Shown here: positions 3,189 to 17,998 of the stretch, in pieces
How positions within the stretch are numbered: position 1 is the first letter of the stretch
Layout: each line of letters opens with the position of its first letter
NCBI GenBank assembly: GCA_017470145.1
Contig: JAFUFB010000027.1
Span: 1-38,109 of the forward strand
From: Clostridia bacterium
GTDB lineage: Bacteria > Bacillota > Clostridia > Christensenellales > Aristaeellaceae
DNA: 38,109 nt
Reading direction: 5' to 3'
The notes under the pieces: generated by a model
The model's database searches: none
What the model was told of the DNA's origin: nothing
What the model saw: the letters and a program-made list of their open reading frames with translations, nothing else
Translations under genes and position numbers: made by a program

Positions 3189-4148
3189 ATGAGCACGACG
3201 GCAAAGCCGAAAAGAATGAAAACGGGAGGGCGCTCCGTGCTATGGTATCTGCAGCAGGACTGGCAGCTCTGGATTATGCTGCTTCCTGCTGTGATTTACA
3301 TTTTCATCTTCTGTTACATGCCTATGTACGGGGCACAGCTGGCCTTTCGGAAATATGATTTCGCGAAGGGAATCTATGGCGGCGACTGGGTGGGCCTGGA
3401 GTATTTTAAACAATATTTCTCCAGCACCATGTTCTCCACCACCCTGGTCAATACCCTGACCATCTCCTTCTGTTCCATTCTGTTTTCCTTCCCCGCGCCC
3501 ATTGTACTGGCGATTATCATCAATCAGCTGAAGGTGCAGAAGTGGAAGCGAACCCTGCAAACCACCGTGTATATTCCCTACTTTATCTCCACCGTGGTGC
3601 TGGTCTCCATGCTGAATGTGCTCTTCGCCAAGAACGGCGGTGTGCTGAGCGATCTGCTGAAATTCCTGCATATCGTGCCGGAAAAAGCAAACCTCCTGGG
3701 CCAGCGGCAATACTTCGTCTGGATGTACGTGGGCAGCGGCATCTGGCAAAGCATGGGATGGAATTCCATCATCTATATCGCCGCCCTGTCCTCCGTGGAC
3801 ATCCAGCTGTATGACGCTGCAAAAATCGACGGGGCCAATGTCTGGCAGCGGGTAATGCACATCGAATTCCCTGCGCTGGTACCCACCATCATGATTCTGC
3901 TCATCATGAATATGGGAAACATCCTGAACGTGGGCTTCGATAAGATTTATCTGATGCAGAACACCCTGAATCTGAAATCCTCCGAGGTTATCTCCACCTA
4001 TGTGTACAGCCTCATGGCTCCAAAAACCGGCGCGCCACAGTTTTCCATGGCCACTGCCGTAGGTCTGTTCACAAATGTCGTGAATTTCATTTTCCTGCTG
4101 CTGGCCAACACCATCAGCAAGCGGGTCACCGGCTCCGGCCTGATGTAA
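3189..4148 (+). CDS. Sugar ABC transporter permease, LplB/YteP-type
   Basis: This 319-residue inner-membrane protein forms half of the translocation channel. About six membrane segments are visible, the first near residues 28-48 (IMLLPAVIYIFIFCYMPMYG). The EAA loop that docks on the ATPase is present as DAAKIDGANVWQRVMHIEFP at about 210-229. The ATG at 3189 follows AGGGAGG; the reading frame is open further upstream but without a ribosome site. It is separated by 13 bases from the second permease. No ATP-binding subunit is encoded in the operon; Lpl-type systems commonly share a housekeeping MsmX-like ATPase encoded elsewhere. Confidence 0.92.
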   Translation: MSTTAKPKRMKTGGRSVLWYLQQDWQLWIMLLPAVIYIFIFCYMPMYGAQLAFRKYDFAKGIYGGDWVGLEYFKQYFSSTMFSTTLVNTLTISFCSILFSFPAPIVLAIIINQLKVQKWKRTLQTTVYIPYFISTVVLVSMLNVLFAKNGGVLSDLLKFLHIVPEKANLLGQRQYFVWMYVGSGIWQSMGWNSIIYIAALSSVDIQLYDAAKIDGANVWQRVMHIEFPALVPTIMILLIMNMGNILNVGFDKIYLMQNTLNLKSSEVISTYVYSLMAPKTGAPQFSMATAVGLFTNVVNFIFLLLANTISKRVTGSGLM

Positions 4149-4161
4149 GGAGGGGATCAGC

Positions 4162-5085
4162 ATGGCAAAGAAAGAACTTAGCTTCACTCCTACCCGCAAC
4201 CGCATTCGGGACCGGGACGCCGCGGATATCATTTTTCATATTCTGGTGGTGGTTCTGAGCATTCTGTGCTTCCTGATTATCGTCTATCCTCTGTGGTTCG
4301 TGGTCATCGCCTCCATCAGCAATTCGGATTTGGTAAATCAAGGTAAGGTCGTACTTTGGCCCGTAGACATCCGTTTCTATGGCTTTGAGCAGATTTTCCA
4401 GGACAGCCGTATTCTGATCGGTTATCGCAACACCATTCTGTATGTAGTGGGCGGCACCCTGCTGAACATGATCGTCACCATGCCCGCAGCCTACGCCCTG
4501 AGCCGGCCGGATTTCCGCCTGCGGAATCCGATCATGCTCTATTTTGTCTTCACCATGTATTTCTCTGGCGGTCTGGTCCCCACCTACATGCAAATCAATC
4601 GGCTGGGGCTCATCAATACCCCTTGGATTCTGCTGGTGATGGTGCTGATTAACACCTATAATCTGATCATCGCCCGCACCTTCATCCAGAACACCATTCC
4701 CAACGATCTGTATGAATCCGCCACCCTGGATGGCGCCAATCATTTCCGAATCTTCTGGAGCATCGTATTGCCCCTGAGCAAGGCCATCATCTCGGTAGAA
4801 ATCCTGTATTACGCTGTGTTCCACTGGAATGACTACTTCAACGCCCTGATCTATACCTCAAACACAGACATCCAGCCCCTGCAGATGGTGCTGCGCCGCA
4901 TTCTGCTGCAAAATGAAGCCTTTGCCAACGGCAATGGCGGCGTCCAGGGCGGATACGCCCAGTCCAGCGCAGATCAGGTGAAGTATGCCGTCATGATCGT
5001 TTCCACCGTCCCGATCCTACTGGTTTATCCTTTCATCCAGAAATACTTCGAAAAGGGCGTAATGATCGGGGCCGTGAAGGGATAA
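4162..5085 (+). CDS. Sugar ABC transporter permease, LplC/YtcP-type
   Basis: This 307-residue protein is the second permease of the sugar importer. It has a first membrane segment at about residues 24-46, further segments through the middle, and the EAA loop YESATLDGANHFRIFWSIVL at about 180-199. The C-terminus ends in the family-typical KYFEKGVMIGAVKG. The start has AAGGAGGGG at good spacing. It is the last transport gene before the glycosidases, 159 bases upstream of the GH127-like gene. Confidence 0.92.
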   Translation: MAKKELSFTPTRNRIRDRDAADIIFHILVVVLSILCFLIIVYPLWFVVIASISNSDLVNQGKVVLWPVDIRFYGFEQIFQDSRILIGYRNTILYVVGGTLLNMIVTMPAAYALSRPDFRLRNPIMLYFVFTMYFSGGLVPTYMQINRLGLINTPWILLVMVLINTYNLIIARTFIQNTIPNDLYESATLDGANHFRIFWSIVLPLSKAIISVEILYYAVFHWNDYFNALIYTSNTDIQPLQMVLRRILLQNEAFANGNGGVQGGYAQSSADQVKYAVMIVSTVPILLVYPFIQKYFEKGVMIGAVKG

Positions 5086-5244
5086 GATTTTTCGCCCGCC
5101 AGCGGGTTCTAAACGCCTGGAAAGCAATCCCCCCCTGAACAATTTTTTCAGTAACAAAGGGCCGCAGCACCGGGAATTCTTTCGCTAAAATAATCGGTTG
5201 CTTCCTGTGCCGATATATTCTTCTGCACCCTGAGAGGAGATCAT

Positions 5245-7080
5245 ATGATAGAAAACAAACTGTCTTCCATGGACTATGCCCATGTCACGCTGCTGGACAG
5301 TCCCTTCCGCCGCCAGCGGGATGAAACCCTGGAGACCTATCTACGCGTTCCCACCGTGGAGGATATCCTGCATCGTGTTCGTCTGCAAGCAGGCCTCCCT
5401 TCCTCTGCTGTGGGCATGGTAGGCTGGGGCCCCTCCATCGGCCAGTACCTGGGCGCTTATGCCAAGTGGTATCGGAGCACAGGAGACAAACGGCTCCGCC
5501 AGAAGGCGCTGGATCTCTTCCACGGCTGGTGCGAATGCGCTGAAAAAAATGAGGAGGTCATGAACGTTGGCACCTACGTCTGGGAAAAGCTCCTGGGAGG
5601 ATTTCTGGATCTTTATGAGTTCATGGGGCTGGAGGAGGTTCGTCCCTGGGTGCTGCGAATCACGGAATATGCCCATAAAACCTTCGATCCCAACATTCCC
5701 CGGGATGGGCTGCAAAGCGACGCCATGAAGGGCCAGATTGAGTGGTACACCCTGCCGGAGAATCTCTTTCGGGCCTGGCAGCTTTTTGGCGATCCCCTGT
5801 ACCGGGAAATGGCGGAAGAATGGCTCTATCCCTATCTATGGGACAAGTTGGCCGCCGGGGAAAAGGATATCGGTCCCCGGCATGCCTACAGCCATGTCAA
5901 CAGTCTTTCCTCCGCAGCCCGGGCTTATCTGGTCACGGAGGATCCCCATTATCTGAAGGTCATTGAGAAGGGATACAAGGAGCTGACGGAAAACCATATT
6001 TACGCCACCGGTGGCTACGGCCCCGGGGAGATGCTTTTCGGCGAGGATCCCGGCTATCTGGGAAACGCGGTATTGCCCACCTGGGACAGGGAGCTCACCG
6101 AAACAAACAAGCTGGTGTACCGTAATTTTGTCGGCGCTCTCTCCACCCGCTCCGATGCCTGGGGCAGCTGCGAAGTCAGCTGCTGCAGCTGGGCCGTGTT
6201 CAAGCTCTGCAATTATCTGATCCGTCTAACGGGGGATGCCCGCTACGGCGACTGGTGTGAAAAGCTCCTGATCAACGGCGTTCTGGGCCAGCCGCCCATT
6301 ACAGACAAGGGTCAAGTGCTCTATTACGCCAGCTATTTCCTGGATGGGGCCCTAAAGTCCTATGAGGATCGTCGCCTGCAACACTTGGGCCAGAATTTCG
6401 TCTGGCAGTGTTGCACCGGCACCTTCCCTCAGGATACTGCGGAATATGCCAACATGATCGCTTATTATGATTCGGAGGGGTTATACATCAGCCAACTGAT
6501 TCCTGCCGCGGTGGATTTCACTGCCCAGGGCATCCCGGTCACCCTTTTCAGCGAAGGGGATTTTCCGGCCTCCCCTGAAGCCCATTTCCGTCTCCGTTCC
6601 CCCTCCCCCGTCCATTTTACGCTGCGCATCCGGGTCCCCTCCTGGGCCACAGAAAGCAACCAGGTTCGCGTCAATGGGGAGGCGCTGGATCTGCCCCTCG
6701 TTCCCAATACCTGGCTCACCCTGGATCGGCTCTGGAAGGATGGGGACGAGGTCGTGCTCTCCCTGCCCTATCGGCTTCGTTTCCAAGCCGTGGATCCTCA
6801 GCATCCCAATGTGGTAGCTCTATGTTATGGCCCCCTGACCCTGGCCTGCGAGGAAATGACCGTGCTGGTAGGGGATCAGGCACATCCGGAAAACTGGATT
6901 CTACCCGTGGAAGGAGAGCAGAATGTCTTCCGCACGCTACCGGGCCATAGCGGATTTTATCCGCAGATCTGCCGGACCTTCCGCCCCTACTACACCATTG
7001 GGCTCATGAAGTGGTACTATCTGTATAATCGAATTTATCCCGATATGCAGACCCTGGACCGTCAGCATCAGGGAACATAG
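5245..7080 (+). CDS. GH127-like (DUF1680) glycoside hydrolase, putative beta-L-arabinofuranosidase
   Basis: This 611-residue cytoplasmic enzyme has no signal peptide, so it should act on imported oligosaccharides. It has the (alpha/alpha)6-barrel layout of the DUF1680/GH127 family with a C-terminal beta domain (about 430-600). The cysteine and glutamate residues typical of the zinc-thiolate active site are here: C309-E310, C313-C314 and C389-C390. In characterised GH127 enzymes the nucleophile is a cysteine held by zinc. The E-x-x-C spacing differs from the E-x-C of the founding enzyme as I remember it, so this is a divergent subgroup and the substrate is not certain. The start has GAGAGGAG upstream. 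It is followed 20 bases later by the GH31 gene. Confidence 0.82.
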   Translation: MIENKLSSMDYAHVTLLDSPFRRQRDETLETYLRVPTVEDILHRVRLQAGLPSSAVGMVGWGPSIGQYLGAYAKWYRSTGDKRLRQKALDLFHGWCECAEKNEEVMNVGTYVWEKLLGGFLDLYEFMGLEEVRPWVLRITEYAHKTFDPNIPRDGLQSDAMKGQIEWYTLPENLFRAWQLFGDPLYREMAEEWLYPYLWDKLAAGEKDIGPRHAYSHVNSLSSAARAYLVTEDPHYLKVIEKGYKELTENHIYATGGYGPGEMLFGEDPGYLGNAVLPTWDRELTETNKLVYRNFVGALSTRSDAWGSCEVSCCSWAVFKLCNYLIRLTGDARYGDWCEKLLINGVLGQPPITDKGQVLYYASYFLDGALKSYEDRRLQHLGQNFVWQCCTGTFPQDTAEYANMIAYYDSEGLYISQLIPAAVDFTAQGIPVTLFSEGDFPASPEAHFRLRSPSPVHFTLRIRVPSWATESNQVRVNGEALDLPLVPNTWLTLDRLWKDGDEVVLSLPYRLRFQAVDPQHPNVVALCYGPLTLACEEMTVLVGDQAHPENWILPVEGEQNVFRTLPGHSGFYPQICRTFRPYYTIGLMKWYYLYNRIYPDMQTLDRQHQGT

Positions 7081-7100
7081 ATATGGAAAGGAAAAAAATC

Positions 7101-9071
7101 ATGAACTACTTTGAAATCGATGGACAGCGGCTGATTTTTCGCAATCACGGGGAAACCCTGTATATTGATCCCTGGGGACCAGACAGCCTGCGGGTTCGTT
7201 CCGCCCTGCAGGGAGAGGTGCGGGATGACCGCTTTGCTCTGTTGGATCCCATTCCCTGTCCAGGCGCGAAGGCCCTTATCCTGGACGAGCTTCACGCCGA
7301 GGTTCGCTGTGGCAAGATCACCGCGAAGGCAGAGGTCTGCGGATGGAAGAACATCGCCGTGCTCACCTTTGTAAACCACAAGGGCGAAATTCTTTTGCGG
7401 GAGACGGAGGGGGAAAATGCCCTGACGCTGCGAGCCCGGAAGTTCGAGCCCCATCTGGGCGGTGATTATACCCTCACCGCCACCTTCCAGGGGCAGGAGG
7501 AGGAACACATCTACGGCATGGGCCAATATCAGGAGGAATATCTGGATTGGAAGGGATGCACCCTGGAATTAGCTCATCGGAACTCCCAGGCCAGCGTCCC
7601 CATGTATCAGTCCAGCCGGGGCTACGGCTTTCTCTGGCACAATCCCGCTATCGGCTCCGTCTCCTTCGGGCGAAATAAAACCACCTGGCGGGCGGATTCC
7701 GCCAAGCAGCTGGATTATTGGATCACCGCCGGGGATACCCCTGCGGAAATCAGCCTGCATTACGCCCAGGCCACAGGCTTCGCACCCATGATGCCGGAAT
7801 ACGGCCTGGGCTTCTGGCAGTGCAAGCTGCGCTACTGGAATCAGGAACAGCTGCTCTCCGTCGCTCGGGAATATAAACGCCGGGGTCTGCCCATCGACGT
7901 CATCGTTTGCGACTTCTTCCACTGGCCCCATATGGGGGATTATCGCTTTGATCCCGAATTTTTCCCGGATCCTGCCGCCATGGTGCGAGAGCTGAAGGAG
8001 ATGGGCATCGAGCTCATGGTCTCCGTCTGGCCCCAGATCGCCCTCACCTCAGAAAACTATGAGGAGATGCTGCAGCAAGGGCTGCTGGTTCGAGCGGAGT
8101 ATGGCGAGCAAGTTGGCATGCGTTTCGTGGAGGATTCCATGTTCTACGATGCCACCAATCCCCGGGCCCGGGAGTATGTTTGGCAAAAGTGCAAACAAAA
8201 TTATTACGATCAGGGCGTCCGCCTTTTCTGGCTGGATGAGGCAGAGCCGGAGTACGGCACCTATGATTTCAAGGCCTATCGCTATGCCCTGGGCTCCAAT
8301 CAACAGATCGGAAACATCTATCCCCAGTGCTATGCCCGGGGGTTCTACGAGGGCATGGCGCGGGAGGGCCAGGAGAATCCCGTCAATCTGCTCCGCTGCG
8401 CCTGGGCTGGCAGCCAACGCTACGGCGCCTTGGTGTGGAGCGGGGATATCATGAGCGACTGGAGCTATCTTCGCCGCCAGGTTTGCGCCGGCGTTAGCAT
8501 GGGCGTGGCCGGTATCCCCTGGTGGACCACGGACATCGGTGGTTTCCACGCCGGCAATCCCCAGAAGCCGGAGTTCCGGGAACTGCTGATCCGCTGGTTC
8601 CAGTGGGGCTGCTATTGCCCCGTCATGCGTCTCCATGGAGATCGTCAACCCGCGGAGCCGGTGTACCGGAAGGACGGCACCCGTGTGCTGAATTCCGGCA
8701 GTGATAACGAGGTCTGGAGCTTTGGCGAGGAAGCCTATCCCATCCTGGTCAAGTATCTGAACCGCCGGGAAGCCCTCCGGGATTACATTCGGGAGCTGAT
8801 GCGCCAAGCCCATGAGGCAGGCACGCCCCTCCTCCGAGGCATGTTCTATGAATTCCCCGGGGATGAAAACTGCGCGCTTTTGCAGGATCAGTACATGTTC
8901 GGTCCCCGCTTCCTGGTGGCTCCCGTCATGGAGCCTGGCCAGCGGCAGCGCCAGATCTATCTGCCCCAGGGAACCTGGCGTAATGTGGACACGGGGGAAA
9001 CCCTATCCGGCGGCCAATGGGTTACTGTCCCCGCGCCGCTAGACGTAATCCCCGTGCTGGAAAAAATCTGA
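7101..9071 (+). CDS. GH31 family alpha-glycosidase (alpha-xylosidase or alpha-glucosidase)
   Basis: This 656-residue cytoplasmic retaining glycosidase removes alpha-linked xylose or glucose from the non-reducing end of oligosaccharides. The nucleophile is D379 in WLDEAEPE and the acid/base is D449 in WSGDI, both in typical GH31 contexts; the stretch GIPWWTTDIGGF further on is also diagnostic. An N-terminal beta-sandwich covers about 1-210 and C-terminal beta domains about 570-656. I chose the ATG at 7101, with GGAAAGGAAA before it, rather than an in-frame ATG at 7083. The WLDEAEPE form recalls alpha-xylosidases, and together with a possible arabinofuranosidase hints at arabinoxyloglucan oligosaccharides, but alpha-glucosidase activity cannot be excluded. 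Confidence 0.9.
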   Translation: MNYFEIDGQRLIFRNHGETLYIDPWGPDSLRVRSALQGEVRDDRFALLDPIPCPGAKALILDELHAEVRCGKITAKAEVCGWKNIAVLTFVNHKGEILLRETEGENALTLRARKFEPHLGGDYTLTATFQGQEEEHIYGMGQYQEEYLDWKGCTLELAHRNSQASVPMYQSSRGYGFLWHNPAIGSVSFGRNKTTWRADSAKQLDYWITAGDTPAEISLHYAQATGFAPMMPEYGLGFWQCKLRYWNQEQLLSVAREYKRRGLPIDVIVCDFFHWPHMGDYRFDPEFFPDPAAMVRELKEMGIELMVSVWPQIALTSENYEEMLQQGLLVRAEYGEQVGMRFVEDSMFYDATNPRAREYVWQKCKQNYYDQGVRLFWLDEAEPEYGTYDFKAYRYALGSNQQIGNIYPQCYARGFYEGMAREGQENPVNLLRCAWAGSQRYGALVWSGDIMSDWSYLRRQVCAGVSMGVAGIPWWTTDIGGFHAGNPQKPEFRELLIRWFQWGCYCPVMRLHGDRQPAEPVYRKDGTRVLNSGSDNEVWSFGEEAYPILVKYLNRREALRDYIRELMRQAHEAGTPLLRGMFYEFPGDENCALLQDQYMFGPRFLVAPVMEPGQRQRQIYLPQGTWRNVDTGETLSGGQWVTVPAPLDVIPVLEKI

Positions 9072-9091
9072 TTCCTCCCCAGGAATCCAAT

Positions 9092-9123
9092 CGCCCCGGC
9101 ATAGTCTCGCCGGGGCGTATTTT
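9092..9123. terminator. Bidirectional terminator between convergent operons
   Basis: The 9-bp perfect stem CGCCCCGGC / GCCGGGGCG with an 8-nt loop is followed by TATTTT on the plus strand. It lies between the end of the glycosidase operon and the end of the ECF operon on the other strand. Confidence 0.75.
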
Positions 9124-9162
9124 CTCGTTGTTTTCATAAAGCGCTTGATACATCATCTTCCA

Positions 9163-9849
9163 CTACACGCCGTATTTGATCTTGATCCGCTCCAGCTTTT
9201 CCCCGAAAGGCTTTCCCAACAGCAGCAAAAACACCACATTGCTGAGGGCATAGCTGATCATATAGGGCAGCGCAGTCGCTACCGCCGCGGCATACAGGGG
9301 CCAGTTAATGCCCCCGTTGTACCAAAGCACCGTCCAGATATCCATAAACAGGGAATAAGCCACCCCGGCGAAAACTCCATAGGCCGAAAGGGCCAGGCGG
9401 CTTTTCTTCAGCGGCTGGGCCAGCAGCCCCGCCAGCAACCCGATCATGCCCCAGGCGAACATCTGGAAAGGAGTCCATGGGCCCTGGCCGGAAAAGAAAT
9501 TGGAAATCAGGGCAGACAGGGCCCCCACCAGGAATCCTGTCTCCCCGCCGATCCAGATAGCCGTAATCACCACAATGGCCGTAATGGGCTTAAAACCTGG
9601 AATCGGTGCGAACAGCACCCGCCCCAGCACGCTCAGAGCGGTCATCACCGCGGCAATAACCATGCGGCGGGAGCCCACGGTTTTCTTTTCAAACCCCGTC
9701 ACAAACAGCGCCTGGGTCAGGATCACCATGCCCAGAATCCCCCAGGCATAGAACCGATCCCCCATCTTCCATCCGCCCCAAACCACCAGCAAAGGCATCA
9801 TCACCAGGGGGATGCCCCACCGCAGGGTGTTTCTCCATCCCCGCTTCAT
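9163..9849 (-). CDS. ECF transporter S component (CbrT-like, predicted cobalamin)
   Basis: This 228-residue membrane protein is the substrate-binding subunit of an energy-coupling-factor importer. It shows about six hydrophobic segments, and a conserved-looking stretch NFFSGQGPWTPFQMFAWG at about residues 112-129 that resembles S components assigned to cobalamin in Firmicutes. The ATG overlaps the stop of the double ATPase by four bases (ATGA), so the two are translationally coupled. The vitamin B12 assignment rests mainly on the neighbouring intrinsic-factor-like protein; another cobamide precursor is possible. Confidence 0.8.
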   Translation of the reverse strand: MKRGWRNTLRWGIPLVMMPLLVVWGGWKMGDRFYAWGILGMVILTQALFVTGFEKKTVGSRRMVIAAVMTALSVLGRVLFAPIPGFKPITAIVVITAIWIGGETGFLVGALSALISNFFSGQGPWTPFQMFAWGMIGLLAGLLAQPLKKSRLALSAYGVFAGVAYSLFMDIWTVLWYNGGINWPLYAAAVATALPYMISYALSNVVFLLLLGKPFGEKLERIKIKYGV

Positions 9850-11477
9850 TGGCCCGCCTCCCGCTTCAGGGTTTGGACGGCCTCCGCCACCGTGACGCAT
9901 CCCGGCGCCAGGCGGCTGACAGGGGTAGTGTAATAGCTGCCCCGGGCGAAGAAGGCATGGGGCTCGTCCACCGCCTCCAATCTTCCCCGGAACAGCAGGC
10001 CACACCGATCCGCGGTCTCCGCCGCAAATTCTGCGTCATGGGTCACCATCAGGATGGTCATGCCTTCCTGCCGCAGCCCCCGCAGCACCTCCTGAATCTT
10101 TCCTCGCCAGGACGCGTCCAGCCCGCCTGTGGGCTCATCCAGCAGCAGGAGCCGGGGTTTCACCGCCAATACCTTCGCCAAGCCCACCAATTGCTGCTCG
10201 CCCCCGGATAGATCGTAAGGATGCTGATCCAGCAGGTGATGAATGTCAAAGGGCAGCTCCTCCGCCCGGAGGCCGGAATCCTTCAGCTCCTCCCTTACGC
10301 TGGGGCGCAGAAACAGGGTCTGCACATCCTGGGGCATCATGGCCACCCCCTCGTGGCGCAGGGTTCCATGCCGGTATTCCTTCTGCTCCTTGCCGAAGAA
10401 TCGAATCCTTCCGCTGTAGGGCTTGATCAGCCCCGCAGCCGCCCGCAGCAGGGTGGATTTTCCACTGCCATTCCCGCCCAGGATGCCGAAGATTTCCCCC
10501 GGAAGCAGATCAAACTCCAGGGACCGCAGCACATCCTGGCCCTCCCGGGAAAAGCGGAAGGACACCTGATGGAAAGAAAGGGCTGGGACAGGGGGGGCTT
10601 TTGCGTTTTTTTGCTCTTCAAGCTTTTGGCGTTCGGATGCTTCTCCGTGCTTCGGAAGCCATTTGCTGATCCAGGCCCGGCCTTCCCCGGTGTTCAGCGG
10701 GCACTCTCCCGCCGCTCCCAGACCGCGCCAGATTCTCGTCGCCGCAGGCAGGGCCCCTTCCAGGGCGCTGCCCTGAGGGATCGCAGCGCAGACCTGTCTG
10801 GGCTCTCCAGCAGCCGTAATCCTTCCCTTGTCCATCAGGATCAGCTGGTTCGCCCGGCTTAGGCTGTCCTCCAGCCGATGCTCTGCCATCAGGATGGTCA
10901 TGCCCGTTTCCCGGTTTAGTCGCTCCACCGCCGAGAGGAAGTTCCGCGCCGCGATGGGGTCCAGCCGGGCGGTGGGCTCGTCCAGAATCAGCAGCTCCGG
11001 CTCCATCGCCGTTACCGCCGCCAGATTCATCAGCTGCTTCTTGCCGCCGGACAGCTGATCCGGATGCCGGTCAAAGCTATCCTCCAGGCCGAAGAACTGG
11101 GCCACCTCCGCCACCCGGCGACGCATCTCCTTTTCCGGAATGCCCAGATTCTCCAGCCCAAAGGCCAACTCATGCCAAACCCGATCAGTGACGATCTGCT
11201 CCTCCGGGCGCTGAAACACAAAACCAATCCGGGCCGCAGACTCCCGCGAGGAAAGGGTCGCCAGGCTTTGCCCCTGGAAAAGGATGGCCCCCTCCTGGGT
11301 TCCCTGGGGAGCCAGCTCCCGCTTCAGCAGCCGCAGCAGCGTGGTCTTTCCGCAGCCCGTTTCTCCCGTCAGGATTGCGAAATCCCCCGGCTGCAGGCAC
11401 AGAGAAACCTCCCGCAGGGTAGGCCGGGCCACCCCGGCATAGGTAAAGCTCAAATTCTGGACATCAAGAATAGGCAT
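9846..11477 (-). CDS. ECF transporter ATPase, two fused ABC domains (CbrU-like)
   Basis: This 543-residue cytoplasmic protein powers the ECF importer. Domain 1 has Walker A GETGCGKT (38-45), signature LSGGKKQ (142-148) and Walker B LLILDEPT (162-169). Domain 2 has GGNGSGKST (334-342), LSGGEQQ (423-429) and LLLLDEPT (443-450). A variable linker of about 70 residues (230-300) joins them. Most ECF systems use two separate ATPases; the fused form is characteristic of dedicated group I systems. I chose the ATG at 11477, which has GGAG seven bases upstream; a TTG at 11489 is a weaker choice. A structured element of about 155 bases separates it from the ecfT gene. Confidence 0.93.
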   Translation of the reverse strand: MPILDVQNLSFTYAGVARPTLREVSLCLQPGDFAILTGETGCGKTTLLRLLKRELAPQGTQEGAILFQGQSLATLSSRESAARIGFVFQRPEEQIVTDRVWHELAFGLENLGIPEKEMRRRVAEVAQFFGLEDSFDRHPDQLSGGKKQLMNLAAVTAMEPELLILDEPTARLDPIAARNFLSAVERLNRETGMTILMAEHRLEDSLSRANQLILMDKGRITAAGEPRQVCAAIPQGSALEGALPAATRIWRGLGAAGECPLNTGEGRAWISKWLPKHGEASERQKLEEQKNAKAPPVPALSFHQVSFRFSREGQDVLRSLEFDLLPGEIFGILGGNGSGKSTLLRAAAGLIKPYSGRIRFFGKEQKEYRHGTLRHEGVAMMPQDVQTLFLRPSVREELKDSGLRAEELPFDIHHLLDQHPYDLSGGEQQLVGLAKVLAVKPRLLLLDEPTGGLDASWRGKIQEVLRGLRQEGMTILMVTHDAEFAAETADRCGLLFRGRLEAVDEPHAFFARGSYYTTPVSRLAPGCVTVAEAVQTLKREAGQ

Positions 11478-11507
11478 CTTTTTCTCCAATTAGTAATCGC
11501 AACAGTT

Positions 11508-11663
11508 CAGCCATGCGAAGGGATGTTTCACTCAGGGGCCCTTGGAAGACGTCGGCACTTAGCGGGTGGCGAGGGTTCACCCGAAGGCAGCCGCTTTGTG
11601 CCGCTACGTCTGGAACGGAGCGAGAGCGTGCCCCGGAGGGGAACTCCCGCGCGCATACGGCTG
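11508..11663. repeat. Structured dispersed element, long copy (E1)
   Basis: This gene-free 156-base stretch folds almost completely. The outer stem is CAGCC-ATGCG (11508-11517) with CGCAT-ac-GGCTG (11652-11663). Inside are a 12-bp stem (11547-11558 with 11598-11611, one 2-base bulge), AGCGG/CCGCT, a GGG/CCC hairpin, and a GGAG..CCCC/GGGG..CTCC arm. Its left 60 bases align without gaps to 26857-26916 (about 41 of 60 identical), and 11514-11541 matches 15296-15323 at 25 of 28 positions. It lies between ecfT and the ATPase gene, its right end five bases from the ecfT stop codon. It could be a non-coding RNA or a miniature mobile element. Confidence 0.7.
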
Positions 11664-11668
11664 AACAC

Positions 11669-12547
11669 TTACACTTGACTTATCAATCTTTTCCACCGGG
11701 CGCGATCCCAAAGTTCCAGGGCCGGCGCGGCCAGGCACAGGGCGACGAAGAGCAGATAGGCCGCTATTCCGGGCAAACGGAAGGCCGGCGTCACCAGCCG
11801 GGGATACCAGCTGTATCCAATCCATCCCATCCATTTGGCCCCCAGGATGATCAGCATCATCCCCAGGCTCCCCGCCGTCAGCAGGGTATCCTGCCCTTCC
11901 CAGGGATAGAGCACATATCGCGTACGTTTCCCCATGCCATATCCCCGGGCCGTCATGCTATCCGCCAGGGTAATGCCGTTCTCCAGCCCCCAGGTCACCA
12001 TGCCGTCAAAGATTCTCACCGCACCCTTCATCCGGTCCAGCCCATTTTCCTCCCGGATCAGCCCCAGCCCCGCCTGGGCTTCCCGGGCCATCCGGGCCTG
12101 CCGGCGCAGCAGGGGTACATACCGCAGGGCCATACTCAAAATCAGGGATACCTTCGGGCTCAGACGGCTCATCACTGTCAGCAGCCGGTCCGTATCCATC
12201 ATCAGCAGGAAGCAACGACTCCAGATCAGCGCCGCGGCGATCAGCATGCCCATGACCCATCCATACAGCAGCGCCTCCCGGGTCACCGGGTTGCTGTTCA
12301 GGAAAAACAGGGGCGTTTCTCCATTGTGGTTAAACATCGGATTGATCACGCCGCTGAACAGCACAATGCCCAGATAGCCCAGGTATTCCTTGCCAGGAAA
12401 GTGTCCCGCCAGCAGCCAAAGCAGCAGCGCGCCGGAAAGCAGCCCGGTTCCCGCCGTAAGGGGATCGATCCCGAAAATCACCGGAAGCAGCACACACAGA
12501 AAATAGACGCACACCGCGCCGGGATGCCGGCTTTGCACTGGGCCCAT
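11669..12547 (-). CDS. ECF transporter transmembrane component EcfT (CbrV-like)
   Basis: This 292-residue integral membrane protein couples the ATPases to the S component. It has membrane segments in the N-terminal half (about 10-115), then the long cytoplasmic coupling helices carrying SMALRYVPLLRRQARMAREA (about 146-165) and the second coupling motif SMTARGYG (about 204-211), whose Ala-Arg-Gly triplet is diagnostic of EcfT/CbiQ. Two more membrane segments follow near the C-terminus. The start has AAGGAGG upstream. It is the second gene of the unit that begins with the intrinsic-factor-like protein, 27 bases downstream of it. Confidence 0.9.
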   Translation of the reverse strand: MGPVQSRHPGAVCVYFLCVLLPVIFGIDPLTAGTGLLSGALLLWLLAGHFPGKEYLGYLGIVLFSGVINPMFNHNGETPLFFLNSNPVTREALLYGWVMGMLIAAALIWSRCFLLMMDTDRLLTVMSRLSPKVSLILSMALRYVPLLRRQARMAREAQAGLGLIREENGLDRMKGAVRIFDGMVTWGLENGITLADSMTARGYGMGKRTRYVLYPWEGQDTLLTAGSLGMMLIILGAKWMGWIGYSWYPRLVTPAFRLPGIAAYLLFVALCLAAPALELWDRARWKRLISQV

Positions 12548-12574
12548 ATTTTGCTGCCTCCTTCCTTGCGCTGC

Positions 12575-14128
12575 TTATTGATCCTTCCCTAAATTCCGGG
12601 TATACACCCATTCCACCAGATCCCCCGCCTGCAACCTGTACTGGGTGCTGCCCACGTCGGCGAACTCCCCATTCACCTTGTACATCCATCCGGAGAGATT
12701 GCCAAAGGCGTACTCGTAGAGGTATCCGATGCCCCGCACATAAGCTCCCGCCGCCGTACCGTCGTATTCCATCTGAATCCGTGCCTCCCGGGTGGCCTCC
12801 AGTAGCTGATCAAAGGCGGTTTCTCCCTCCGCCATAGGGATGGTGGTTTCCGCCAGCAGGATGCCATCCGTCGGCGCATACTCATTTTCCCCCGCGATGC
12901 TGTCGCAGCGGATGGAAATCCGGGTTTCCAGATTCCTGTCCGCCTCCGACCTCCGAGCCGCGCTGTAATATCCCTCCGGGGTCTGAATCTCCGTCCCGAT
13001 GATGACGGCCGCCAGCGCCAGTCCCATCAGCAGGGGGCAGGCATAGCTGCGCCAGTTCCGTTTTCTCCGCGCGGCGGCCAGAATCCATCCCGACGCTACC
13101 AGCAGCGCCGCCCCCGCCAGGAGCCAGGCCCGCAAGGGCACCCGCTTCACCCAGGAGGCGACGCTAGGCCGAGGAGGTTGAAAATCAAACACATAATAAG
13201 GGCTGCCGCCGGCCAACTCATTCTCCAGCCCCACCAGGGCGTAAAAGCACTGCACCGTGGCAGTGTCGTTCCGCCCCACCCCCAGGCTGTGGGCAAAGCC
13301 CTCTCCCGGGAGGCGGAACCGCAGCATGGCATCCAGCGCAGAGCCGCCAAGCTTTACAAAGCGTTCATCCTTTGTTCCGTCGATCCCCAGGCAGGACAGG
13401 GCCAGCAGGGCCTGGGCGCAGCTCTCCGCGCTTTCCATCCCCATGCCCAGAAAGCCACCGTTTTCCTGCTGCACCTCGGACAACACCTGCACGCCCCGCT
13501 GGATGGAATCCTGCACCTCCGCCTTCGCCCCCAGGGGGGCCAACGCCTGCAAAGCCATGGCGGTGCAGTCCACGTCGCAGATTTCCCCGATCACGGCCCA
13601 GCCGCCATCCGCCAGCTGCAGGGCAATGATCCGGTCCGCCATCTCCGCCCGCCGAGCGCCGTAGATTTCCGGATCGTTATTCATCAAGTGCAGGGCGAAC
13701 ACCAGGGGCATCAGGGTTACCTCCCCCTCCGCCGCGGCGATGGTTTCCTCGATAAAGGGGCTCTGACTTCCCAGGGCCTGCAGCGTCAGGGCCATGCGCT
13801 CCCGCTTGGTGATGCTGCCCTCTTCCTTCTCGGCCTTTTCCTCCAGCGCGGCCCGGACCCGCAGAAAGTCTGTCCCCGCGATCTTCCCCGGCCAGACCCC
13901 ATCCGCCGCCATTTTTTCCAGACGGCGCAGGGCGATGAGATACCATCCCCCCGTGCCGTCCGCGGCTTCTGTCAGGGTGGAATCCACCCACCCCTGCAGG
14001 TCCTTCTGCCCCGCCAGGGCTATTTGCTCCTGCATGATCTGGGAGATCAGACCCGCAGGCTTCTCTCCCAGGGCCAGGCCGCAGAAAAGCAGCATCCCCG
14101 CCAGCAGCATCACGAAAATCCGTTTCAA
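12575..14128 (-). CDS. Intrinsic-factor-like surface protein: alpha-barrel, membrane hairpin, DUF4430
   Basis: This protein (517 residues) has a signal peptide (MKRIFVMLLAGMLLFCGLALG), a helical prenyltransferase/terpenoid-cyclase-type barrel (about 35-305) with repeats marked by GGWAV, GGFLGMG and DTATVQCFYAL, two membrane segments (about 334-353 and 363-380) joined by the basic loop RRKRNWR, and a C-terminal DUF4430 domain (about 403-512) with SGWMYKVNGEFADVG and LQAGDLVEWVYT. By the positive-inside rule both large domains face outward. An alpha6-alpha6 barrel plus a DUF4430-like beta domain is exactly the architecture of mammalian intrinsic factor and transcobalamin. With the ECF genes just downstream it is likely a cobalamin-capture protein; this is inference. 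A TTG at 14128 has a strong GGGAGGGAG; an in-frame ATG at 14152 is the alternative. Confidence 0.82.
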   Translation of the reverse strand: MKRIFVMLLAGMLLFCGLALGEKPAGLISQIMQEQIALAGQKDLQGWVDSTLTEAADGTGGWYLIALRRLEKMAADGVWPGKIAGTDFLRVRAALEEKAEKEEGSITKRERMALTLQALGSQSPFIEETIAAAEGEVTLMPLVFALHLMNNDPEIYGARRAEMADRIIALQLADGGWAVIGEICDVDCTAMALQALAPLGAKAEVQDSIQRGVQVLSEVQQENGGFLGMGMESAESCAQALLALSCLGIDGTKDERFVKLGGSALDAMLRFRLPGEGFAHSLGVGRNDTATVQCFYALVGLENELAGGSPYYVFDFQPPRPSVASWVKRVPLRAWLLAGAALLVASGWILAAARRKRNWRSYACPLLMGLALAAVIIGTEIQTPEGYYSAARRSEADRNLETRISIRCDSIAGENEYAPTDGILLAETTIPMAEGETAFDQLLEATREARIQMEYDGTAAGAYVRGIGYLYEYAFGNLSGWMYKVNGEFADVGSTQYRLQAGDLVEWVYTRNLGKDQ

Positions 14129-14185
14129 AGCTTCTCCCTCCCTGGGATCCATTCTACCTTATTTCCTTCCCTTTGCGCAATCCCA

Positions 14186-14214: not shown

Positions 14215-14245
14215 GGATGTATTCCATTTTTCAGGAGGAACCCCT

Positions 14246-15289
14246 ATGCAAACCATCGCCATTACCCCCGATACACCCCGCCTGCGGCTGCTGGGCCGCA
14301 TGGATCTGACCCAAAATCCCCTTTGCCTGGACTGGACCGGCAGCGGCCTGGAATTCCGCCACCGGGGTTCCGACGCCTGGGTAGAGCTGGAGGCGCCGGA
14401 AAAATCCCCTATCTTTTATATGATCGTCCTGTCCGACGGCTGCCCCGTGGTCCGTTTCCCGGTGGAGCCCGGCGTCCGCTTTTATCCCCTGATTCTGGGC
14501 ATGGAAGCAGACAAGGAGCGGACCATTACCCTGATGAAGGAAACCCAGTGCATGCCGGACAGCTCCGCGGGCACAGTGAAGCTCCATTCCCTGCGGTTTG
14601 AAGGAGAGCTGCTGGACCTGCCCTCCTATGATCTGCGCATCGAATTCATCGGCGACAGCCTCACCAGCGGGGAAGGCGCCTTGGCCCCCCTGGGGAATGA
14701 GGAATGGATCACCCCCTGGTTCTCCGCCCGGGGCAATTATTCCTGGTACGCCTGCCAGATGCTGAACGCCGAGCGGCGCATCCTGAGCCAGAGCGGATAT
14801 GGCACCGTCTGGAACTATCTGCATGACGAAGCCCGGAACATGGCGGAAGGCTATGAAAAGATCGCCGGGGTCATGTTCGGCCCGGAGGCCGAAGCCCGGG
14901 GCTGCCAGAAGCCCTACGATTTCTCCGCCTGGCCAGCGGACATCGTCTGCATCCGCCTGCTGAGCAACGACGCCGGCGGCATGAACCACAAGCAGTCCTT
15001 CGAGCAGGATCATGCTCCCCTGGTCCAGGGCTGCCTGGACCTGCTGGAGAAGATTCGAGCCAATAACCCGAAGGCGAAAATCGTCTGGATCAAGCCCGAT
15101 TCCGGCTGCCATCCCGAGGTGGCGGACGAGGCGGCGGAGCTAGCCCGGCAGAAGGGCCTGCAGGAAATTTACACCTTCGCCCTGCCGGACTATCACCCGG
15201 AGGACTGCGGCGCCCGCAATCATCCCAACGCCGCCTGGAATCAGATGGCCGGGCAGCTGCTGGGCGAGTATCTGAAAGGGATTCTATAA
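14246..15289 (+). CDS. SGNH/GDSL hydrolase, probable carbohydrate acetyl esterase
   Basis: This 347-residue cytoplasmic protein has an N-terminal beta-rich domain (about 1-125) and a C-terminal SGNH hydrolase domain (about 130-347). The nucleophile is S138 in FIGDSLTSGEG, block III is around N241 (LLSNDAGG), and the catalytic histidine is H326 in RNHPN. This two-domain form resembles CE2 acetylxylan esterases, which remove acetyl groups from plant polysaccharides, so it may work with the glycosidases at 5245-9071 on imported, acetylated sugars. It has its own promoter and GGAGGAA ribosome site. The stop is followed within six bases by a piece of the dispersed element E3. Confidence 0.85.
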   Translation: MQTIAITPDTPRLRLLGRMDLTQNPLCLDWTGSGLEFRHRGSDAWVELEAPEKSPIFYMIVLSDGCPVVRFPVEPGVRFYPLILGMEADKERTITLMKETQCMPDSSAGTVKLHSLRFEGELLDLPSYDLRIEFIGDSLTSGEGALAPLGNEEWITPWFSARGNYSWYACQMLNAERRILSQSGYGTVWNYLHDEARNMAEGYEKIAGVMFGPEAEARGCQKPYDFSAWPADIVCIRLLSNDAGGMNHKQSFEQDHAPLVQGCLDLLEKIRANNPKAKIVWIKPDSGCHPEVADEAAELARQKGLQEIYTFALPDYHPEDCGARNHPNAAWNQMAGQLLGEYLKGIL

Positions 15290-15639: not shown

Positions 15640-16716
15640 ATGGGTCAAAAAATGCTCATGAAGGGAAATGAGGCCATTGCCGAAGCCGCCATCCAGGCGG
15701 GATGCCGCTTCTTCTTTGGCTACCCCATTACCCCTCAAAACCAGATTCCCGAATACATGTCCAAGCGGCTGCCCAAGATCGAGGGAGGCTGCTTCCTGCA
15801 GGCGGAAAGCGAAGTCGCCGCCATCAACATGGTCTACGGCGCAGCCGGCGCGGGCGCCCGCGTCATGACCTCCTCCTCCTCTCCCGGAATCTCCCTGAAG
15901 CAGGAGGGCATCAGCTACATCGTCGGCGCCGAGCTGCCCTGCGTCATCGTCAACATGGTCCGCGGCGGCCCCGGCCTGGGGTCCATTCAGCCCGCCCAGA
16001 GCGACTATTATCAGTCCACCCGGGGCGGCGGCCACGGGGATTACCGGATGCTGGTGCTGGCTCCTTCCTCCGTGCAGGAGGCTGTGGAGCTGACCCAGAC
16101 CGCCTTTGACCTGGCGGATAAGTATCGCAATCCCGTGCTGATCATGGGCGATGGCCTCATCGGCCAGATGATGGAGCCGGTGGAGATGCCGGATTATCAA
16201 AAGCCCGCTGATCTGCCTCCCAAAACCTGGGCGGCCACGGGCTGGACCCCCTCCTCCGACCGGGAGCGGGCCATCATCAATTCCCTGTATATCGATCCCG
16301 CCGTGCTGGAAAAGCATGTGAACCATCTGTATGAGAAGTACGCCGTCATGGAACAGACGGAATGCCGCTGGCAGGAGGAAATGACGGAGGACGCCGACTA
16401 TGTGCTGGTCGCCTACGGCACCACCGCCCGTATCGCCCGCTCCGCCATGCGCAAGCTGCGGGAGGAAGGCATCAAGGCGGGCCTGATTCGGCCCATTACC
16501 CTTTGGCCCTTCCCCGCCGCCCCCATCGCCCAGGCCGCGGCGCATGCCAAAGCCTTCCTGACGGTGGAAATGAGCATGGGCCAGATGGTGGATGACGTCC
16601 GCCTGGCCGTGGAGGGCAAGAAACCCGTGCATTTCTTTGGCCGTACCGGCGGCATCGTGCCCACCGTGCGGGAGATCATTACCCAGGTTGAAAATCTGGC
16701 AAAGGAGGGGAAGTAA
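15640..16716 (+). CDS. 2-oxoacid:ferredoxin oxidoreductase, alpha subunit (VorB-type)
   Basis: This 358-residue subunit holds the pyrimidine-binding domain and a transketolase-C-like domain. The N-terminus MGQKMLMKGNEAIAEAAIQA and the motif GYPITPQNQIPEYM are characteristic of the group annotated as VorB (3-methyl-2-oxobutanoate:ferredoxin oxidoreductase) or KorA. The enzyme decarboxylates branched-chain or other 2-oxoacids to acyl-CoA and reduces ferredoxin, a step of amino-acid fermentation. The gene starts 17 bases after the delta subunit behind AAAAGGAGGA. Sequence alone does not separate 2-oxoisovalerate from 2-oxoglutarate as substrate. Confidence 0.93.
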   Translation: MGQKMLMKGNEAIAEAAIQAGCRFFFGYPITPQNQIPEYMSKRLPKIEGGCFLQAESEVAAINMVYGAAGAGARVMTSSSSPGISLKQEGISYIVGAELPCVIVNMVRGGPGLGSIQPAQSDYYQSTRGGGHGDYRMLVLAPSSVQEAVELTQTAFDLADKYRNPVLIMGDGLIGQMMEPVEMPDYQKPADLPPKTWAATGWTPSSDRERAIINSLYIDPAVLEKHVNHLYEKYAVMEQTECRWQEEMTEDADYVLVAYGTTARIARSAMRKLREEGIKAGLIRPITLWPFPAAPIAQAAAHAKAFLTVEMSMGQMVDDVRLAVEGKKPVHFFGRTGGIVPTVREIITQVENLAKEGK

Positions 16717-16719
16717 ATC

Positions 16720-17457
16720 ATGGCTGTTGTATATGAGAAGACCGGCATCCTGACGGACGCGCCCCTTCATTATTGCCCCGGCTGCACCCATGGCATCATC
16801 CATCGCCTGGTAGCGGAGGCCATTGACGAGCTGGGCATCCAGGGCAAGACCATCGGCATCGCCCCCGTGGGCTGCGCCGTGTTCGCCTACAATTATTTCA
16901 ACACCGACATGATGGAAGCCGCCCACGGCCGGGCCCCGGCGGTAGCCACCGGCTGCAAGCGGGTGAATCCGGATAACATCGTCTTCACCTATCAGGGGGA
17001 CGGCGACCTGGCTTCCATCGGCGCGGCGGAGATTACCCATGCCGCCACCCGAGGGGAGAACATCACCGTCATCTTCGTCAATAACGCCATTTACGGCATG
17101 ACCGGTGGCCAGATGGCCCCCACGACCCTGCCCGGCCAGGTGACCACCACCTCCCCCTATGGGCGGGATCCGGCGCTGTGCGGCTATCCCATCCGGGTCA
17201 GCGAAATGCTGGCCACCCTGGATGGCCCGGCTTACATCGCCCGCTGCTCCGTCCATGATGTGAAGCATATCATGGACGCCAAGAAGTGCATCAAGAAGGC
17301 CTTTGAAACCCAGATTGCCAAGAAGGGCTTCTCCCTGGTGGAGGTGCTGTCCTCCTGCCCGACCAACTGGGGCATGACGCCTCGGGAGGCGCTGAACTGG
17401 CTGGAGGCCAACATGATTCCCCAATATCCCCTGGGCGTGAAAAAGGAGGTAGAGTAA
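16720..17457 (+). CDS. 2-oxoacid:ferredoxin oxidoreductase, beta (TPP-binding) subunit
   Basis: This 245-residue catalytic subunit binds thiamine pyrophosphate through [16 protein letters not shown] and the downstream [11 protein letters not shown], which together supply the Mg-diphosphate ligands. An N-terminal CPGC motif (residues 19-22) and further cysteines may help bind a cluster, as in related enzymes. It starts three bases after the alpha stop codon, with AGGGGAAG upstream, so the pair is translationally coupled. There is no full ferredoxin domain in it; the delta subunit supplies that. Confidence 0.94.
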
Positions 17458-17461
17458 TTCC

Positions 17462-17998
17462 ATGGAAGCTCAATTCCTGATTGCCGGCTTCGGCGGACAG
17501 GGCGTGCTGCTGATCGGTCAGCTGCTGGCCAAGGCCGCCATGCACGAGGGCATGAACGTTTCCTGGATGCCCTCCTATGGCCCCGAAATGCGGGGCGGCG
17601 AAGCCAACTGCGCCGTGGTCATCTCCGATGAACCCATCGGCTCTCCCCTGGTGACGGAGATCCCCTTCGCCGTCATTATGAACAAACCCAGCATGATTAA
17701 GTTCACCCCCGCTATGGAAAAAGGCGGCGTCATGCTGTACAATTCCTCCCTCATCGACATTACGCCGGATCGGGAGGATGTGGTCGCTATTCCCGTGGAT
17801 TGCAATGGCATCGCCGAATCCCTGGGCAATGCCCGGGTGGCCAACATGGTCATGCTGGGGGCGATTTTGAAAAAGACCGGCGTCGTTTCCATCGACGCGG
17901 CTATGGAAGCCCTGAAGCAGACCTTTGGCCCCAAGAAGGAGCATCTGCTGCCCATTAACCGCCAGGCCATGGAGGCCGGCGCAGCCAGCGTGCAGTAA
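17462..17998 (+). CDS. 2-oxoacid:ferredoxin oxidoreductase, gamma subunit
   Basis: This 178-residue subunit carries the coenzyme A-binding Rossmann-like fold, recognised by GFGGQGVLLIGQLLAKAAM at residues about 9-27 and by the following SYGPEMRGGEANC. It completes the delta-alpha-beta-gamma complex. AAAAAGGAGG lies before its start, and it starts four bases after the beta stop codon. A strong terminator at 18021-18050 ends the operon. Confidence 0.93.
   Translation: MEAQFLIAGFGGQGVLLIGQLLAKAAMHEGMNVSWMPSYGPEMRGGEANCAVVISDEPIGSPLVTEIPFAVIMNKPSMIKFTPAMEKGGVMLYNSSLIDITPDREDVVAIPVDCNGIAESLGNARVANMVMLGAILKKTGVVSIDAAMEALKQTFGPKKEHLLPINRQAMEAGAASVQ

Follow-up and report, generated by a model that had tools for sequence, protein, structure and literature searches.

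A gut bacterial operon appears to join a membrane-anchored relative of the human B12-capturing stomach protein to an adjoining import pump

We analyzed a 38,109-nucleotide stretch of DNA from a Clostridia bacterium (GenBank assembly GCA_017470145.1, contig JAFUFB010000027.1, positions 1 to 38,109), hereafter the window. Its minus strand carries, at 9163-14128, the four-gene unit that an earlier note on this DNA had delineated and that we recovered in full: a barrel-hairpin-DUF4430 protein (here called the receptor), EcfT of an energy-coupling factor (ECF) transporter, a fused double ATPase and an S component. The genes and the parts of the receptor are as follows.

12575..14128, minus strand: proposed cobalamin receptor, an exported barrel-hairpin-DUF4430 protein of 517 amino acids (open reading frame, Pfam, fold prediction)
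14066..14128, minus strand: signal peptide, receptor residues ~1-21 (hydrophobic N-terminus; predicted helix 2-18; cleavage site by eye)
13175..14065, minus strand: alpha/alpha barrel, residues ~22-318 (Prenyltrans and SQHop_cyclase_C matches; fold match)
12995..13135, minus strand: two-helix membrane hairpin, residues 332-378 (predicted helices 332-353 and 359-378; positively charged inner loop)
12593..12937, minus strand: DUF4430 or transcobalamin-beta-like domain, residues ~398-512 (Pfam DUF4430, 7e-14)
11669..12547, minus strand: EcfT, 292 amino acids (CbiQ family, 24.1 bits, just below the Pfam cut-off of 25)
9846..11489, minus strand: fused double ECF ATPase, 547 amino acids (two ABC_tran stretches in Pfam; TIGR04520, 7e-97)
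9163..9849, minus strand: S component with a CbrT-like core, 228 amino acids (ATG at 9849; Pfam ECF_trnsprt, 1.8e-12)

The receptor gene runs from a TTG at 14128, preceded by the stretch AGGGAGGGAG, to a stop at 12575; starting instead at an in-frame ATG at 14152 would lengthen the protein to 525 amino acids. In gene order, the spacings are 27 nt (receptor to EcfT) and 179 nt (EcfT to ATPase), followed by a 4-nt overlap of the ATPase and S component genes. The receptor passed the curated DUF4430 profile (PF14478; 52.5 bits against a cut-off of 23.8, E 7e-14). At E<=10, this domain was matched in all 64 receptor sequences aligned (from 81 at hand), Prenyltrans in 47 and SQHop_cyclase_C in 58; PF01122 was not among the 25 families listed for them. 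The Prenyltrans match of the window receptor (3e-4) is below cut-off. The loop between the hairpin helices is basic, with a mean net charge of +4.1 and a lowest value of +2 across the 64 sequences. This positive-inside pattern suggests that the barrel and the DUF4430 domain should both face the outside, judging from hydrophobicity and charge, and it backs the earlier proposal that both halves point outward on a hairpin.

The predicted barrel fold matched terpene cyclases and the intrinsic factor alpha domain. Among the 50 fold matches listed for the whole receptor, two intrinsic factor entries and one transcobalamin entry aligned across both domains, and only these three spanned both; haptocorrin and other transcobalamin entries were absent from the 50. 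The likeness to the two halves of intrinsic factor claimed in the earlier note thus bore out for the predicted fold: both domains could be superposed, with barrel and beta domain in one arrangement as in intrinsic factor and transcobalamin. PDB profile searches by sequence with the receptor found neither intrinsic factor nor a related binder chain. The evidence for kinship at the sequence level is mixed, as the DUF4430 model matches the receptor, yet these searches yield no binder chain. According to a passage of PMC4350170, vertebrate TCN proteins carry DUF4430 C-terminally. A terpene cyclase as the main function was rejected because the receptor is exported, has DUF4430 as a partner of the barrel and, in its predicted fold, fits intrinsic factor over both domains.

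The closest solved chain to the S component was 6fnp_A, CbrT of L. delbrueckii (E 2.4e-13 from the single sequence). A family profile of 54 of the 67 sequences at hand matched 6fnp_A at E 5.6e-17 and the next solved S component at 4e-4. The N-terminal ~55-60 residues have no counterpart in CbrT and contain, by eye, two further hydrophobic stretches. The operon thus holds a CbrT-kind S component together with EcfT (just under its cut-off) and two ATPase domains, as in CbrTUV transporters. The ECF transporter assigned to the receptor by the earlier note therefore stands and gains a CbrT-like S component; what had to be corrected is its standing, for the module is of the already known CbrTUV type. 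Passages of the literature describe L. delbrueckii CbrT as a B12 S component, shown by growth complementation and uptake (PMC5997447), count cbrUVT among the genome signatures of B12 uptake (PMC8123684) and report CbrUVT from an L. plantarum plasmid (PMC6722938).

A scan with one barrel motif found receptor relatives in 344 stretches of named genomes. We analyzed the 80 best-scoring loci, so that the counts describe close relatives only. EcfT, the double ATPase and the S component adjoin the receptor in 68 of these best 80, under score limits and a 7-kb midpoint distance of our own choosing; homologues thus sit mostly beside the same ECF transporter and not beside unrelated ones, as the earlier note required. 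Receptor matches occur in 22 of 200 genomes of the GTDB family, this one included (one match, in G042, is weak and covers the hairpin only). In the genus of the window, strong S-component matches and a barrel-type DUF4430 protein coincide in the same 5 of 45 genomes, and a sixth has a weak S-component match (E 2e-4). Across the phylum, 117 of 398 genomes gave receptor-type matches, many of them barrel-only or in separate genes. No receptor relative was found in the viral contigs searched.

Most relatives carry a secreted DUF4430-like gene at the position occupied in the window by a divergent gene (14240-15289). Profile comparison of this upstream secreted protein with the DUF4430 domain gave 15% probability at E 0.0017, and the fold search was far clearer. 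The single-domain secreted proteins resemble the transcobalamin beta domain, which the title of PDB entry 5np4 describes alone with cyanocobalamin. In three relatives (L057:6842-7984, L068:7004-7915, L072:6998-7939), the upstream secreted protein ends in a TG-containing motif, a membrane helix and a basic tail, resembling a sortase signal.

Rfam detected a cobalamin riboswitch ahead of the operon in six of eight relatives, the two without it being congeners of the window. Further Rfam scans found it at two of eight and three of 14 loci (one of the three AdoCbl-II), sets mostly picked where our first covariance model, R1, was weak or silent. Our two models, R1 and R2, placed a riboswitch at 41 of the 80 loci at E<=1e-3; a single AdoCbl-II match from Rfam brings the total to 42. 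Of the six R1 sequences, at least five come from contigs that were searched again and so match by construction, as do the 17 of its own matches from which R2 was built; the Rfam scans are independent. All 49 R2 matches (E<=0.1, 1.2 Mb) are on the coding strand. The next gene downstream, sought among five operon genes only and with distances measured to stop-to-stop frames, was the secreted gene in 44 and EcfT in 5. Three clusters (L119, L124, L125) have two cobalamin riboswitches each (~6793-7006 and ~9566-9789), one preceding the secreted gene and receptor and another preceding EcfT. No riboswitch was found at the window locus with Rfam and both models, nor at its four nearest relatives (L051-L054). 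A sign of B12 regulation was seen in relatives outside the genus and not for the window operon. We do not treat it as defining for CbrTUV, because Lactobacillales CbrT was predicted from gene context and the absence of BtuCDF, as a passage of PMC5997447 states.

In the genome as a whole, a single cobalamin riboswitch was detected (G000:C30:95572-95786; 150 of 224 first-look candidates scored), and it precedes a gene for a secreted 155-amino-acid DUF4430 protein. The upstream and the standalone DUF4430 proteins were judged by eye to be secreted. MetH is encoded, and FecCD protein and CbiD were not found in the assembly, which is 83.7% complete. Every standalone DUF4430 gene found in the genus lies directly downstream of a cobalamin riboswitch (seven of seven genomes). 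We inspected eight congeners that lack the S component. In five of them (G066, G112, G132, G163, G195), the riboswitch heads BtuFCD-like genes for a binding protein, a FecCD permease and an ATPase, Pfam-checked in two and judged from sequences in three; G163 has a second cobalamin riboswitch before another operon. In the other three (G209, G216, G218; 64-68% complete), a DUF4430 gene follows the riboswitch, so the single-domain protein occurs without this transporter too. In G218 and G216 (L149:6306-7531, L150:165-1347), the DUF4430 gene is followed by one for a 169-residue membrane protein, possibly another S component, for which no Pfam match was found at E<=1e-3.

Two members of the GTDB family (L047, L048) encode the barrel and DUF4430 as separate proteins, next to ECF genes of the same kind. 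By eye, the barrel protein of L047 has a C-terminal membrane helix and the DUF4430 protein that follows an N-terminal one; in L048, a helix is present in the DUF4430 protein alone. Latilactobacillus curvatus CP117684 encodes an LPXTG-anchored barrel protein, a DUF4430 protein, EcfT, a double ATPase and an S component, with no riboswitch found at Rfam's gathering score. In the phylum search, further barrel matches had a DUF4430 match on the same strand at a distance of 1-1.3 kb (for example G440:C10 and G610:C7). As the two domains occur as separate proteins too, the receptor hairpin is best read, from these sequences, as two membrane anchors fused into one chain. The L. curvatus operon (L185, CP117684.1 111203-121466) lies on a 592-kb plasmid typed mobilizable. 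In L047, an open frame of 2043 amino acids (3452-9583) unites repeated domains, a DUF4430-like segment and the barrel with its C-terminal membrane helix. In Vescimonas (L186, NZ_AP023417.1 91074-105553), a barrel gene and a DUF4430 gene that scores below cut-off stand beside MoxR, DUF58 and transglutaminase genes, with no ECF gene found in the stretch; pairs of this type may have other uses.

We interpret the operon as probably a CbrTUV-type ECF importer of cobalamin (corrinoid) whose extracellular receptor acts in the manner of intrinsic factor. The basis is gene content, sequence-derived topology, the predicted fold match, the receptor-ECF linkage and the riboswitches of relatives. The suggestion of the earlier note that the protein "could clamp" cobalamin is supported by the superposition, the neighbors, the relatives' riboswitches and the CbrT-like S component. 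Cobalamin would be caught between the barrel and the DUF4430 domain, while the hairpin would keep both halves just above the membrane and beside the S component. The S component would then take the vitamin over, with EcfT and the double ATPase powering its inward release. We are less sure of the single-domain secreted proteins (the riboswitch-led 155-residue protein and the relatives' upstream gene product), which may be auxiliary B12 scavengers, perhaps acting ahead of the receptor. ECF systems are usually regarded as having no separate binding protein. In contrast to this picture, we put forward tentatively, and with more doubt than belief, that the receptor is an obligatory two-stage device, an intrinsic-factor clamp tethered to the membrane that would dock through its hairpin onto the S component, perhaps at the additional N-terminal residues, and supply it, and that vertebrate intrinsic factor and transcobalamin descend from it or share an ancestor with it.

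The same apparatus might physiologically carry another corrinoid or a precursor (cobinamide, pseudocobalamin, dimethylbenzimidazole, cobalt) in place of cobalamin. L. delbrueckii CbrT carries cobinamide too, according to a passage of PMC5997447, and an excerpt of the review PMC8123684 lists cbrUVT as cobyrinate diamide uptake. However, the predicted two-domain clamp resembling the human binders argues for a corrinoid over cobalt or a lower base alone, and MetH of this genome needs the finished cofactor; we regard such a cargo as unlikely, about one chance in several. A change of substrate in this genus after riboswitch loss would fit the failure to find a riboswitch at the window locus and L051-L054. 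We consider it very improbable, as the S component is 47-64% identical to those of 49 aligned operons outside L051-L054, riboswitch-led ones included, the genome retains a cobalamin riboswitch on its second DUF4430 gene, and no FecCD-type importer was found in it.

Another possibility is that the two domains assist the ECF complex without holding the vitamin, the barrel acting as an enzyme or simple scaffold and DUF4430 as a domain for the wall or for assembly. Terpene cyclases are the closest solved barrels by sequence, the top single-domain fold match among the 50 listed is drimenyl diphosphate synthase, and the invariant D187-x-T-A-M of the barrel resembles the DXDD acid motif of the cyclases, with position 188 presumably in the place of its last Asp. 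However, this position is Val in 92% of the 64 sequences and Cys in the window protein. The receptor is also exported, and intrinsic factor aligns across both of its domains together, which makes an enzyme or scaffold improbable.

On the plus strand to either side, 4162-9071 encodes an ATP-binding cassette (ABC) permease, a 611-amino-acid protein and a GH31 glycosidase, and 15640-17998 holds genes from a pyruvate/2-oxoacid oxidoreductase subunit onward; neither group showed a link to B12. The divergent gene at 14240-15289 has GDSL-esterase and CE2-like matches, both sub-cut-off. Downstream of the 155-residue DUF4430 gene (G000:C30:95572-96324, L049:7573-8325), the opposite strand carries a pair of genes for GTPase-like proteins, which resemble COG0523 metallochaperones; one of the two has long His/Asp runs. 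A NiCo riboswitch (L150:2382-2482 and L149:5170-5270) adjoins a cation-efflux-like gene near the cobalamin riboswitch.

A CbrTUV-type ECF module with an extra lipoprotein component already has a RAST-style name: a passage of a proteomic paper (PMC9963975) has an entry called "additional lipoprotein component of putative cobalamin ECF transporter" and also names a DUF4430 gene next to rtpR. Among the titles listed in our literature searches, none dealt with a bacterial protein of the intrinsic factor kind that is paired with an ECF transporter, and we found no paper that brings these elements together as such a receptor. The transporter type is thus known and the receptor architecture newly recognized. 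Extracellular B12 capture by Gram-positive gut bacteria and the origin of animal B12 binders are both poorly known, and the presence of the operon in many gut Clostridia (the 344 relatives) makes both questions testable. It also offers a concrete candidate function for DUF4430. If our reading is true, host and bacteria compete for B12 using tools of the same design.

Like human intrinsic factor, transcobalamin and haptocorrin, the receptor has its alpha/alpha barrel first and a DUF4430-type beta domain after it. It differs in being bacterial, tethered by a hairpin between the halves and placed beside an ECF transporter, whereas the human proteins act beside an endocytic receptor. With ECF-CbrT and CbrTUV, the operon shares the CbrT-near S component, EcfT and the double ATPase, and it adds the exported two-domain receptor and the ~55-60 extra N-terminal residues of the S component. 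A passage of PMC5997447 places L. delbrueckii CbrT in an nrdJ-cbrS-cbrT-pduO cluster with a shared ECF module, unlike the window operon. BtuFCD would be the equivalent riboswitch-led B12 importer in some congeners without the window-type system, but its binding protein and permease are unrelated. The L. curvatus operon has the same gene order and an S component 34% identical to that of the window; there, however, the barrel and DUF4430 belong to two different proteins, of which the barrel protein is anchored to the wall.

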